Source: Candidatus Aegiribacteria sp. MLS_C
Lineage (GTDB): Bacteria > Fermentibacterota > Fermentibacteria > Fermentibacterales > JCC-6
Assembly: GCA_002030045.1 (NCBI GenBank)
Contig: LQBI01000031.1
Location: 62,001 to 126,000 of the forward strand
Direction of reading: 5' to 3'
DNA: 64,000 bases
Positions 33,321 to 49,567 of the stretch are shown in pieces. Position 1 is the first letter of the stretch, and each line of letters starts with the position of its first letter. Below the pieces are notes generated by a model that saw only the letters and a list, made by a program, of their open reading frames with translations, was not told the origin of the DNA and made no database searches. The translations under genes and the position numbers were made by a program.

Positions 33321-33772
33321 TGAGGATCGCCATAGCCAGCGATCACGCCGGATTCCGGCTCAAGGAGCACCTGGCGGAATGGCTCCGGGGGAGGGATGCC
33401 CTGGTCCTCGAGGACCTGGGCCCTTCGGACGACTGCTCCGTCGATTATCCTGATTTCGCCGGAGCCCTCTGCAGGAGCCTCCTCGCGGGATCCGCCGATA
33501 TCGGCATCCTGATATGCAATTCCGGCATCGGTATGAGCATCAGCGCCAACCGGTACAGGGGCATAAGGGCCGCCCTCTGTCTTTATCCGGACATGGCCTT
33601 CTGGGCCAGGCACCACAACGACGCCAACGTCCTGGTACTGGGAGGAGGCATGACGGCTCCCTTCCTGGCAAGGGAGATAGTGAAGGTCTTCCTGACCGAG
33701 GAGTTCGACGGTGGACGGCACGGGAGAAGGGTCGGCAAGATGGACTCTCTGCCCGGCGTGCAGGGATCCTGA
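33320..33772 (+). CDS. rpiB: Ribose-5-phosphate isomerase B
   Basis: Interconverts ribose 5-phosphate and ribulose 5-phosphate; the latter feeds the riboflavin genes downstream (RibB substrate). The 150-aa product starts at 33320, one base overlapping ptb. MRIAIASDHAGFRLKEHL, DYPDFA, ICNSGIGMSISANRYRGIRAAL and HHNDANVLVLGG match RpiB. The active-site loop reads CNSGIG rather than the more usual CGTGIG. The next gene begins 16 bases after its stop with GAAGGAA upstream. Confidence 0.93.
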   Translation: MRIAIASDHAGFRLKEHLAEWLRGRDALVLEDLGPSDDCSVDYPDFAGALCRSLLAGSADIGILICNSGIGMSISANRYRGIRAALCLYPDMAFWARHHNDANVLVLGGGMTAPFLAREIVKVFLTEEFDGGRHGRRVGKMDSLPGVQGS

Positions 33773-44205: not shown

Positions 44206-45504
44206 TCAGTCTATCAGGTCCCGTCTGCCTATCCAGCCGAGGTAACCGTCGCGGACGAAGCGCCAGTACCTGTTGAGTCTCCTGGGGACCGAACCCCTGT
44301 CCCAGTCGGTGGGCCTGAATACGTTGGGGTCCGGCACCACGAGGGAGCCGACATAGGAACCCTCGCTGTAGACCTTGTCGATCTCGGCTGCGATGGTGTC
44401 TATGTCCTCCTCGGAGGCGACGCCGTTGGAAGTTGCCTTGTAGAATTGAACGGTGACCCGTATGGGGAAGCTGGGGTCCCTTTCGATCTCGAGATTGTCT
44501 ATCTCGGTGAAAGGCCCTTCCAGCTCACCGTGGCCTATGACCGCGGCCTCGACATCTGATGACCTGGACTGGGCTGCTCCTGTGGCGACCATTGAGGCAT
44601 CCTCGCAGCAGCAGACCTCATCGAACCATGTGCTCTGGGGATTGCTCTGCTTCAGCGGTATCTGTATCAGAAGGACCATGTTCAGGTTGCTCTCATCTGA
44701 TATGTCCGAGGGATCACCGCCCTGCTGGGCGTACTGGGTCCTGAAGTCCGATATCCTCTGGCCCGTAAGGCTGGCACGCTGGCCGTTCTCGTTGAAGAAG
44801 AGCCTCTGTCCCCAGCTCCAGGAGCCGGGAACGGCGTCCCTAGTGTTGTCTATAACCGTGACGCTTGTTCCTTCGCGGGTCACCAGGATGGTGAGCACCG
44901 CAGGGTCGCCCTCGTAGGACTGGTAGTTGTAGAGCACCGGGTTGAAGGTGGCGTTCCCGCTCTGAGGTATCGGCAGGAAGACCGCCTGCGCACTCACCAG
45001 CACCACGCTGTCCCTGGGAGCCAGAAGACTGTGCTCGTCGGCCTCCCATGATTCCGGATCGTGAAGGTAGAACCTGATGTTATCAACGAAATCCGTGAGA
45101 GATACGGGAGCCAGGTCCTCACCTATCTCGTTCCCGACCAGCAGGTAGAAATCGTCGGGGTCCATGTCGGCCGAGAGGTCATGGAAGTTCGGGTACCTTA
45201 TTACCGGCATGCATGTCAGGGTTGGGTATTCAGCCCCGTCATCGTAGCTGTGGACCTGAATGGTCATGTCGGAGATGTTGGGCCCCCAGCAGGAGCCGTA
45301 GTACCGTCCGGTGTCCTCCCATGTGACGTTGACCACGTCCAGGCCGTGTTCGGAGGCCATCTGTGTGACCTTGCTGTCCCAGACCATTTCGGCCACCCGG
45401 TTGACCACCTCCCGGTAATCATCGTTGGCAGACCTACCCGGGCAGAAGTAGGCGGCGAATGAGACCGATACGATCATCATTGTTGCCATCGTGTTCATCA
45501 GCAT
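44206..45504 (-). CDS. Exported protein of unknown function
   Basis: A 432-aa protein with a signal-like N-terminus (MLMNTMATMMIVSVSFAAYF) followed by CPGRSANDDYREVV. GGAGG precedes the ATG by about eight bases. The rest looks globular and acidic, with TCMPVIRYPNFHDLS, a putative helical pair, and an unusual CCC within WFDEVCCCEDASMV near residue 300. The C-terminus is basic (RRLNRYWRFVRDGYLGWIGRR). No family is recognised. It is monocistronic with its own terminator. It sits among secreted proteins and repeat elements, suggesting a lineage-specific gene. Confidence 0.6.
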   Translation of the reverse strand: MLMNTMATMMIVSVSFAAYFCPGRSANDDYREVVNRVAEMVWDSKVTQMASEHGLDVVNVTWEDTGRYYGSCWGPNISDMTIQVHSYDDGAEYPTLTCMPVIRYPNFHDLSADMDPDDFYLLVGNEIGEDLAPVSLTDFVDNIRFYLHDPESWEADEHSLLAPRDSVVLVSAQAVFLPIPQSGNATFNPVLYNYQSYEGDPAVLTILVTREGTSVTVIDNTRDAVPGSWSWGQRLFFNENGQRASLTGQRISDFRTQYAQQGGDPSDISDESNLNMVLLIQIPLKQSNPQSTWFDEVCCCEDASMVATGAAQSRSSDVEAAVIGHGELEGPFTEIDNLEIERDPSFPIRVTVQFYKATSNGVASEEDIDTIAAEIDKVYSEGSYVGSLVVPDPNVFRPTDWDRGSVPRRLNRYWRFVRDGYLGWIGRRDLID

Positions 45505-45720: not shown

Positions 45721-46488
45721 TTAGAGTACGTTGAAGAGCCTGAGAAAGTCTATCAGCTGGTACTCGTAGGACAAGAGGTCGGCGCCGTCCGTAAAGACGC
45801 TGTCTATGTTGAGTTCGGCGTAGTGGTCATTGCTGAGCTGGACGAATACCCAGTCGAAGTCGGTTACCTGCACGGAGTCAACCCATTCGGTGGATCCCGG
45901 TTCGGGTGCGAGCCTGCCGTGAGCACCCCTTGGGCAGAGCTTGGTGTCATTGCCACCGGGGTAGTTCACCGGGTCGAAGTTTCCGGAGAACAGGTAGAGC
46001 ATGTTGCCCACGGTATCAATGTAGACATCCTGGGCGAAGTCCATGGAGTCGGCGCAGCCAAGTCCCCAGCCGGTGCCGTTATCGTAGAATACGAGTCCGT
46101 TCGACTCGGTGCCCACGCGCATCTCCCTCTCGTTCAGTGCGGACTCGGCCCTGGTGTCCACCCTGTTGGAGAAGCCGGCGGAGTAGTTGAGCCCTTCGGA
46201 AGCCTTCACCTGATAGTATCCGGTGGTAGTAGCTATGTGAGCGTAGGTCGTATCCTCCGAGATGAATTCGGACCATGAACCCGGCATCGTGGTGGCGAAG
46301 TAGATGTGGTAACCATCGACCGTTACATCGACAGCATCCCAGAATAGCACTACCGTATCACCCCTGGATGCGTTCTCGTCGATCTGGAGGTTCTGCACGT
46401 CCGGAAGGGTCCCGGACGGCGTTGAAGGCTCGCTGGAACATGCGATGAGAAGGGCAAGGGCGGCTGAGACTACAAGGCACTTCTTCAT
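45721..46488 (-). CDS. Lipoprotein with a fibronectin-III-like domain
   Basis: A 255-aa protein with a lipobox (LALLIACSS), so probably membrane-anchored and exported. Residues about 30-115 resemble an FN3 module (VQNLQIDENASRGDTVVLFWDAVDVTVDGYHIYFA). The C-terminal half has isolated Cys residues and no recognised family. Its upstream region contains the 82-bp inverted repeat, whose outward TTGATG could serve as a -35 (see repeat entry). It is followed by a strong terminator and is monocistronic. Confidence 0.7.
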   Translation of the reverse strand: MKKCLVVSAALALLIACSSEPSTPSGTLPDVQNLQIDENASRGDTVVLFWDAVDVTVDGYHIYFATTMPGSWSEFISEDTTYAHIATTTGYYQVKASEGLNYSAGFSNRVDTRAESALNEREMRVGTESNGLVFYDNGTGWGLGCADSMDFAQDVYIDTVGNMLYLFSGNFDPVNYPGGNDTKLCPRGAHGRLAPEPGSTEWVDSVQVTDFDWVFVQLSNDHYAELNIDSVFTDGADLLSYEYQLIDFLRLFNVL

Positions 46489-46548: not shown

Positions 46549-46630
46549 AGGGACGGACCTAATTTCATCAAGTTATTTCTGTATATGATTGATCGATGTC
46601 AAATAACTTGATGAAATTAGGTCCGTCCCT
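46549..46630. mobile_element. 82-bp MITE/REP-like element: perfect 30-bp inverted arms
   Basis: The left arm (46549-46578, beginning AGGGACGGACCTAATTTCAT) and right arm (46601-46630, ending ATTAGGTCCGTCCCT) are exact reverse complements over 30 bases, with a 22-base A+T-rich centre. It carries no ORF. Similar AGGGACRGACC palindromes are known around REP-associated (Y1/IS200-like) transposases. It lies in the divergent region between the lipoprotein and polymerase genes. Each arm has an outward-reading TTGATG that could work as a -35. Confidence 0.75.
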
Positions 46631-46652
46631 GAACTAGGTCCGTCCCTGAATG
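46619..46652. repeat. 17-bp direct duplication at the edge of the 82-bp element
   Basis: AGGTCCGTCCCTGAA occurs at 46619-46633 and again at 46636-46650, a 17-base period. It duplicates the tip of the right arm, suggesting repeat slippage or a nested partial insertion. Confidence 0.8.
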
Positions 46653-46655
46653 GTA

Positions 46656-46684
46656 TTGATTTTGTGTGAACAAATGTTTACATA
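46656..46684 (+). promoter_or_regulatory. Promoter of the polymerase gene with LexA-box-like palindrome
   Basis: TTGATT (46656-46661), a 17-base spacer and TACATA (46679-46684), predicting initiation at or next to the ATG at 46691. The spacer holds TGTGAACAAATGTTTACA (46665-46682). Its core GAAC-N4-GTT matches the Gram-positive-type LexA consensus CGAACRNRYGTTYC at 12 of 14 positions. A repressor bound there would block both -35 and -10. Confidence 0.6.
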
Positions 46685-46690
46685 TATGGC

Positions 46691-49567
46691 ATGGAATACA
46701 TGATCGGTCCTCTGCGCAGCTGGTACTCCTTCCGGAGGGGAGTGGCATCACCGTCGGACCTGTCGTCGTCGTCGGCATCCAGGGGGTTCTCCTGCGGTCT
46801 GCTGGCCGATCTCGACGTCATGTGCGGTCAGCTGGAGTTCGCCGGAGCCTGCAGGAAGGAGGGGATCGCCGGTGCAGCCGGGGTCGATCTTGAGGTTTCG
46901 GGAACCAGGGCCGTATTCGCCGCCGGGGAAGGAGGCTGGGGACAGCTCTGCACCCTCGTCACCTCGACACTGCTACCGGAGCGTATAGGTACCGGGGAGG
47001 CAATGGCCTCCACCGACCGCCTGACGGCCATAGTAGGGACTCCGTACGCCGCTATGGAACTGCGTGAAGCCCGGGGTTTCGAAGGTGAGGTGCTGGTGGG
47101 CGTCCTTCCGGAGGAACTGTCCGGAGTCTCTCCCGCTATGGCTGAGAGGGATATCGTAGAGACCGGCTGCAGTCCGGTGGCGGTGTGGCCGGTGATGTTC
47201 ACCGGAGGGGAGCAGATAAGGACCCATAGAGTGCTTCGAAGGGGCTACCTGGCCATCGAGAAGAGGAGGCCGCTGCAGTCCGATTACGCGACGGAACACA
47301 GCATCATGCCTGATGCGGAAGCTTTCGGAAGGAGCTTCCTCGGGGCGGAGAGGGCCATCTCGGGGAACATGGCGCTGGCGGAAAGACTGGGTACGCTCCC
47401 GAGCACGGGGAACCGCCGACGGAAGAGGGTCCCGGAGGAAGAAGGGAAGCTTGCGGAGATCGCCGCCTCGAGGATCGGTACCGTCTATCAGGGAAGCGCG
47501 GCGGCGAATCACAGGATGGAGAAGGAGCTTGCGGCCATACTGGAGAACGGTCTCGCCGGGTACTTCCTGAGGTTCTTCGAGATAGTCGAGTACTGCAGGG
47601 AGCGGGGCATAGCCGTATCCGCGCGCGGTTCGGCGGCGGGCAGCATAGTGGCCTATCTACTGGGCATTTCCATCATCTGCCCCATCAAGCACGACCTGTC
47701 ATTCTCCAGGTTCTTCAACGTGCTCAGGTCGAGCCCTCCGGACATAGACCTGGACATAGACAGCTCGAGGAGAGAGCAGGTGCTTGACTGGTTCCTGAAG
47801 AGGTCCGGCAGGAGCGGGGCAGCCGTCTCGCAGACCGTCGCCCACAGGTCCAGGTCGGCGTTCAGGGTCGCGGCGTCGGGACTGGGGATCGGCAGTTCCG
47901 AGATGGATACACTCACGAAACTCCTCAGGTACCGTGACAACGGTGCCTGGAGGAGGCCGGAGGCACGGCTGGCGCTGGAGAGATCCCTTCTGCTGAGGGG
48001 ACTGCCTTCGCATCTGGCCCCCCATCCCTGCGGAGTCGTGTGGACCCATGACCCCGTGGACACCTTTGTGCCGCTTCATCCAAGCGCCATGGGATGCCAC
48101 ATCACCCATTTCGACAAGGACGGGGTGGAGGAGATGGGGCTCCTCAAGATGGACCTGCTCGGCCAGAGGGGTCTCACAGCGGTCTCCATGACCTGCTCGG
48201 TACTCGGACGGGAGCCCATGGAGGTGTTCCGAAGAGGAGGACGAATACTCGGGGGAGCCATGGAACTGCTGGACTCCGGCAGGACGATAGGAGTGGTGCA
48301 CGTGGAGTCCCCCGCCATGAGGGGGCTGCTCAAAGAGATGCGGATACGCACGATGGAGGACGTGGGACGGGCTCTGGCCCTGGTCAGGCCCGGTGCCGCC
48401 GCTGGAGGCGGAAGACGGAACTACATGGAGTGCCTCCACTCCGGGAGGATTCAGCAGGGCTGTCTTCCGGAACTCCGTCAGGTGCTTCGGGAGAACATGG
48501 GGGTCATGCTCTACCAGGAGGACGTGTCCAGGGCCGCCGAGGTGCTCCTGGGACTGGACGAGGCATCTTCCGACCTGCTGAGGAGACAGCTGAAGAAGGG
48601 CAGCATACACGAGGAGCAGGTGATATCCATCTGCAGGAGGAGATGTATGGGGCCCCGGAAGGCAGCGGCGGTATGGGAGGTTCTTTCGGGGTACGCAGGC
48701 TACGGTTTCTGCAAGGCCCACGCCTTCACCTACGCCGCGGTTGCATGCGGAGCGGCGGCCCTCAAGGTAGAGAGTCCGGCCCTCTACATGGCCTCGGTGA
48801 TGGCGGCGGGCGGCGGGTTCTACCCGTCCAGGGTCTACCTCGAGGAGGCGCGTCGAATGGGAGTAGAGTTCTCTCCTCCGGGGGTCAACACCGGCCGCTG
48901 GCTTACCTGCGAGATGGAGGGTCGTATAGTTCCAGGCTTCCACCATCTGAAAGGGATGGGGGCCGTTGAGTACGAGAGGCTGGAGGCCGGAAGGCCCTAC
49001 CGTTATCCCTCGGAGGTCCTCTCCGCCGGATGCGGAATGTCCCTCTGCAGGAACATGGCGGCAGCCGGCTGCTTCGGTGAGCTTGGCTTCTCCCCGCCGG
49101 AAGCTCTCATGCAACTGGAGGCTGGGGACGGGGGTTTCTTTCCCGGCATACCCCAGGGCACACCGCCACTGCCCGACTACAGCCGGGAGACCAGGCTGGC
49201 GATGGAGCTGGGACTGCTGGGCCTGCCCCTCTCGCAGAACCCTCTCGAGCTCCTGCAGCCTCCTCCAGGCACGGTGCCTCTGAAGGATGTCCCCGTGTCC
49301 GGCACCTTCGGAATGTGGGGCAGGTCTGTGACGACCAGAAGGCTGGAGGGTGGTTCCGGGTTCCTGATGATGGAGGACGCCACCGGAGTTGCGGATGTGT
49401 TCCTTCCCTCACCGCTCTTCGGCAGGGCGGAGTCCATTCTTGTCCGTCCGGAAGCTACCATTATAGTAAGGGGTAGGCTGGAGAGAGGGAGCAGGATCCG
49501 CGGCTTGTACGTCGAGACAGGTCCGCTGTGTCTGGGACCTCTCGAACCCGAGCCTCCCGAAGAATAG
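46691..49567 (+). CDS. DnaE2/ImuC-like error-prone DNA polymerase
   Basis: A 958-aa family C DNA polymerase alpha subunit. All three catalytic aspartates are present: Asp351 and Asp353 in PPDIDLDID, and Asp488 in LLKMDLLGQRG. The N-terminal PHP domain is degenerate: the usual HxHSxYS metal motif reads LRSWYSF, so proofreading-type activity is unlikely. An OB-fold follows near residue 870 (VSGTFGMWGRSVTT). The size and lost PHP site fit the translesion group DnaE2/ImuC. No ImuA or ImuB gene is nearby. The ATG has no Shine-Dalgarno but sits exactly where transcription is predicted to start, suggesting a leaderless mRNA. SOS control is suggested by the LexA-like box. Confidence 0.85.
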   Translation: MEYMIGPLRSWYSFRRGVASPSDLSSSSASRGFSCGLLADLDVMCGQLEFAGACRKEGIAGAAGVDLEVSGTRAVFAAGEGGWGQLCTLVTSTLLPERIGTGEAMASTDRLTAIVGTPYAAMELREARGFEGEVLVGVLPEELSGVSPAMAERDIVETGCSPVAVWPVMFTGGEQIRTHRVLRRGYLAIEKRRPLQSDYATEHSIMPDAEAFGRSFLGAERAISGNMALAERLGTLPSTGNRRRKRVPEEEGKLAEIAASRIGTVYQGSAAANHRMEKELAAILENGLAGYFLRFFEIVEYCRERGIAVSARGSAAGSIVAYLLGISIICPIKHDLSFSRFFNVLRSSPPDIDLDIDSSRREQVLDWFLKRSGRSGAAVSQTVAHRSRSAFRVAASGLGIGSSEMDTLTKLLRYRDNGAWRRPEARLALERSLLLRGLPSHLAPHPCGVVWTHDPVDTFVPLHPSAMGCHITHFDKDGVEEMGLLKMDLLGQRGLTAVSMTCSVLGREPMEVFRRGGRILGGAMELLDSGRTIGVVHVESPAMRGLLKEMRIRTMEDVGRALALVRPGAAAGGGRRNYMECLHSGRIQQGCLPELRQVLRENMGVMLYQEDVSRAAEVLLGLDEASSDLLRRQLKKGSIHEEQVISICRRRCMGPRKAAAVWEVLSGYAGYGFCKAHAFTYAAVACGAAALKVESPALYMASVMAAGGGFYPSRVYLEEARRMGVEFSPPGVNTGRWLTCEMEGRIVPGFHHLKGMGAVEYERLEAGRPYRYPSEVLSAGCGMSLCRNMAAAGCFGELGFSPPEALMQLEAGDGGFFPGIPQGTPPLPDYSRETRLAMELGLLGLPLSQNPLELLQPPPGTVPLKDVPVSGTFGMWGRSVTTRRLEGGSGFLMMEDATGVADVFLPSPLFGRAESILVRPEATIIVRGRLERGSRIRGLYVETGPLCLGPLEPEPPEE

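Follow-up and report, generated by a model that had tools for sequence, protein, structure and literature searches.

The window analysed here, a 64,000-nucleotide stretch of the genome of Candidatus Aegiribacteria sp. MLS_C, contains an 82-bp hairpin element that is, with a probability of about 0.9, a non-autonomous miniature transposon (a dimer of terminal inverted repeats (TIRs), or REPIN-like MITE), spread in trans by a Y1 HUH transposase of the TIRYT type (RAYT subclass 2.1), the gene for which lies on contig C35 of this genome. The initial annotation, made from the letters of the window, had proposed a MITE of a REP-associated transposase encoded elsewhere, and this proposal is supported by 20 arm copies in the genome, by a pair of arms around a Y1/RAYT-class gene on C35, and by seven congeners in which the site is empty. 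We infer that the C35 protein moves the element, and another of the genome's Y1 genes could contribute. What is new here is the species-specific arm; the kind of element is itself already known, but little studied.

The basic structure is as first described: perfect inverted arms of 30 nt (46549-46578 and 46601-46630, 100% complementary) lie 22 nt apart, and no gene was found inside the 82 bp. Twenty-seven of these nucleotides, ending at GTTA, make up the family-conserved arm, the last 3 bp of the window arms being particular to the window copy. In these terms the element consists of a left 27-nt arm, the TIR or REP unit (AGGGACGGACCTAATTTCATCAAGTTA, 46549-46575, plus strand), a loop private to this copy (46576-46603), of which the outer 3 bp pair on each side, and a right, inverted arm (46604-46630, minus strand). 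The right tip is indeed duplicated, with the 15-mer AGGTCCGTCCCTGAA at 46619-46633 and again at 46636-46650, a spacing of 17 bp; the echo (46631-46651, minus strand) is a second copy of TAGGTCCGTCCCTGAA(C/T), and the 17-bp tandem units occupy 46618-46634 and 46635-46651. As noted at the outset, the setting is divergent: one ORF reads away from the element on the minus strand, starting at 46488, and a dnaE-like ORF does so on the plus strand, starting at 46691.

A pattern search of the genome (2.98 Mb, 35 contigs), by which all copies were counted, located the 27-nt arm (AGGGACGGACCTRAWWTCATCAAGTTA) 20 times at 9 places with 0-2 mismatches, the two window arms among them; the reversed arm, used as a control, gave 0 matches in the same search. 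The element is thus neither single-copy nor lacking a transposase association, findings that would have spoken against its identification as a MITE. The arms stand mostly in facing pairs whose loops are unrelated between places, both pairs and tandem groups being present. Most of the other copies sit between convergent ORFs, facing the 3' end of each, and the window copy is unusual in the genome for its place between divergent genes. Arm pairs at convergent ORFs occur on C1, C2, C5, C30 and C35 (L017, L001, L004, L006 and L014, respectively), and at some arm pairs an ORF runs into the arm and takes its stop codon from the arm's ACC-TAA/TGA. Inspected for target-site duplications, the listed copies show no paired direct repeats beyond their arms, and GTAG is absent from both strands of the 27-nt arm. 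A DDE-type MITE is rejected, no target duplications being visible in those copies and the matching arms flanking a Y1 gene, as is a classic REPIN built of GTAG REPs, there being no GTAG at the foot of the palindrome. The exact 30-nt arm had no match across the genome-contig collection, as expected of an arm that is species-specific.

Copies beside a Y1/IS200-like gene were looked for and found on C35, where a single intact ORF of 372 aa lies between arms at 33635 and 34830. Its product matches Y1_Tnp (PF01797) with E 1e-11 and, more weakly and below the curated cut-off, a C-terminal Bac_DnaA_C HTH (E 4e-5); the match to the NCBI model for REP-associated tyrosine transposases, REP_Tyr_transpos (E 5e-17), likewise lies below the cut-off of that model. 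Homologues of this transposase share its HUH motif (PNHIH) and its Tyr/Asn pair (YIHLN). Genes of the C35 type are present in single copy; the genome has four other Y1 genes, and arms of the AGGGACGG type flank the C35 gene only. A PDB sequence search with the protein gave no match at E 0.001, and a protein scan of the genome-contig collection yielded nothing but distant Y1 proteins, drawn from many phyla. Judged by its sequence, the C35 transposase apparently groups with the TIR-flanked TIRYTs and not with classic GTAG-REP RAYTs, and its predicted HUH motif, catalytic Tyr and C-terminal HTH fit TnpA_REP subclass 2.1.

Systems of this general design have been described before. TIRtrons are TIRYT genes flanked by terminal inverted repeats, further copies of which occur elsewhere in the genome, single, dimeric or grouped; the same work reports REPs at the facing 3' ends of convergent ORFs and gives a tip, GGGGWSAS, for some TIRs only (Di Nocera et al. 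2013, PMC3733652). Common to TIRtrons and the present system are a Y1 gene within long terminal inverted repeats, additional TIR copies and a G-rich tip. The arm differs in being particular to the window species, and its tip, AGGGACGG, agrees with GGGGWSAS at 6 of 8 positions, the tip of the related element L127 (GGGGTCAG) at all 8; the present analysis adds to the TIRtron work empty sites, repeated instances of the tip echo and, inside one genus, arms that track their transposase. TnpA_REP subclass 2.1 (RAYT group 1), defined by an HUH-Y core and a C-terminal HTH, was left with its link to TIRs to be confirmed (PMC6006769); the C35 protein has in common with it the HUH-Y core, the HTH (Bac_DnaA_C) and the lack of a nearby GTAG REP, and differs in that arm families here accompany the protein across a genus. 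In the REPINs of Pseudomonas, two inverted units form a hairpin that a RAYT is believed to mobilise in trans (PMC3116915). The window family shares this hairpin design of paired inverted units, but it has no GTAG, is less numerous (20 arms), has arms that are long and perfect, and its transposase is apparently of another subclass.

Empty sites were likewise sought, and found, in relatives. Seven genomes of the same genus keep both neighbour genes, with a shorter gap from which the element is missing; the insertion junction cannot be fixed exactly, the intergenic flank being too diverged in every relative found. Congener homologues of the C35 protein are about 45% identical to it and are flanked by inverted arms of their own, which are unlike the arm of the window genome and often perfect over 22-34 nt; AGGGGACGTACCACACTTCTTCAACTTA is the arm of one congener. 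The perfection of the window arms, initially read as a sign of recent insertion or strong structural selection, is not unusual, arms around related transposases often being perfect too. The loops of facing arms (L150-L162 and other congener loci) have lengths that group near 11, 28-30 and 41 nt.

Congeners also carry small arm-copy families of their own, absent from the window genome. Of 18 congeners, 16 carry a sister arm, GGGACGTACCACANTTC, in as many as 22 copies, against 0 copies in the window genome, and AGGGACGGACCT occurs in relatives only at background level (16 of 60 genomes including that of the window, mostly as single matches, about as often as the reversed control), so that arm families and transposases go together by lineage. 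Arm similarity tracks protein similarity (Mantel r 0.92, n=17, a value reached in 0 of 5000 permutations), a correlation that takes in near-identical congeners, which weigh heavily in it. It is possible, if unlikely, that this extends to a rule, with TIRYT 2.1 transposases running small populations of miniature elements particular to the lineage, the arms evolving together with the enzyme, and with the enzyme itself making the repeated tips at the element ends. The 2.1 class of RAYT-like proteins, putative movers of DNA, is large and mostly unstudied; in this genus, variants of transposase and arm occur in natural pairs alongside empty sites, which opens specificity and mobility to direct test.

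The relation between miniature and transposase-bearing elements shows in two small congener elements, L160 and L161, which retain versions of both of the differing subterminal sequences of the transposase-bearing elements (CTGGAC...ATATC at one end and a sequence like TGGG...ATTATA at the other) and thus look the way internal deletion derivatives should. The loop of the window element carries, at 46590-46599, the 10-mer TGATCGATGT, which recurs in the left subterminal sequence of the C35 element at an equal distance from the arm; 7 of 200000 shuffles reached a run of 10 nt. The shared 10-mer is suggestive, though not proof, of a partial descent of the window element from a transposase-bearing one. 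In the mechanism that we propose, the C35 transposase would bind the arms as single-stranded DNA, as a hairpin or as paired ends, and cleave at the AGGGACGG tip, the element then passing through a single-stranded intermediate as it is moved or copied. The tip echo of 17 bp would be a later tandem duplication, produced at the foot of the hairpin by replication slippage or mis-processing. Against movement by the C35 protein stand the single copy of its gene type and the description of some members of this transposase class as domesticated.

Such echoes recur. The C35 element bears, at its right end, a perfect 20-bp tandem tip unit; the Y1 gene on C33 (46295-47257 in genome G000, L038) has different arms, and each of its ends holds the tip ACGGGGTCG in three tandem copies; among 132 arms examined, 6 showed an echo, compared with 1 for the reversed-tip control; and whole-arm tandem duplications recur as well. 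These observations would all suit an origin in which the transposase makes the echo, through a mis-processed or repeated insertion at the element end and not through ordinary slippage. This origin, which is compatible with the main explanation, seems to us somewhat unlikely: slippage at a hairpin foot also yields perfect tandem units that include flanking bases, and in the orthologous pair L159/L162 the echo is found in one genome only, so that an echo need not date from insertion. The tip echo is a recurrent tandem duplication at element ends, probably secondary, and its simplest reading is a tandem duplication at the hairpin foot, via slippage or faulty end processing.

A very different account would have the hairpin kept by selection, as an attenuator, a stabiliser of mRNA 3' ends or a protein-binding site, its recurrence reflecting that role. 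The single-strand fold of the window element is strong (-52.5 kcal/mol vs a shuffle mean of -24.8, z -7.9), and a two-way stem could terminate or stabilise transcripts at the convergent 3' ends where most other copies lie. We nevertheless regard this account as very unlikely, the locus being empty in seven congeners, the loops unrelated among copies, and the window copy placed between divergent genes. Conservation as a structured RNA, considered from the start as a finding that would refute a mobile element, thus receives no support from the empty loci or from Rfam, which gave no credible family; its sub-threshold matches, only to eukaryotic miRNA hairpins, fall far below the cut-off and are dismissed as hairpin look-alikes. 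No intrinsic terminator was called at the window element.

That the element supplies outward promoters to both neighbours, as the initial annotation had suggested, is most improbable: TTGATG does face outward in both arms (46608-46613 on the plus strand, 46566-46571 on the minus strand), but no sigma-70-type promoter uses it as a -35 box on either strand, and the dnaE-type gene has its conserved operator region downstream of the insertion.

Read as a miniature transposon, the window hairpin is explained as an ordinary mobile element beside a polymerase gene that is possibly SOS-regulated. The ORF starting at 46691 encodes a product resembling DNA polymerase III alpha or an error-prone polymerase, and just before this gene the congeners conserve a palindrome of the approximate form GTRAACAnnTGTTTAC. 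The 16-bp palindrome is intact in the window at 46666-46681, outside the element (GTGAACAAATGTTTAC; GTAAACATTTGTTTAC in congener G015), and is conserved in the seven congeners that lack the element. We take it to resemble a LexA box of the Gram-positive type, and this LexA-like candidate operator suggests SOS control of the error-prone polymerase gene. On the other side of the element, the minus-strand ORFs at 45721-46488 and 44206-45504 have no Pfam match; the DNA of the former is conserved in congeners, and its protein, with a Cys near the N terminus, looks like a secreted lipoprotein.
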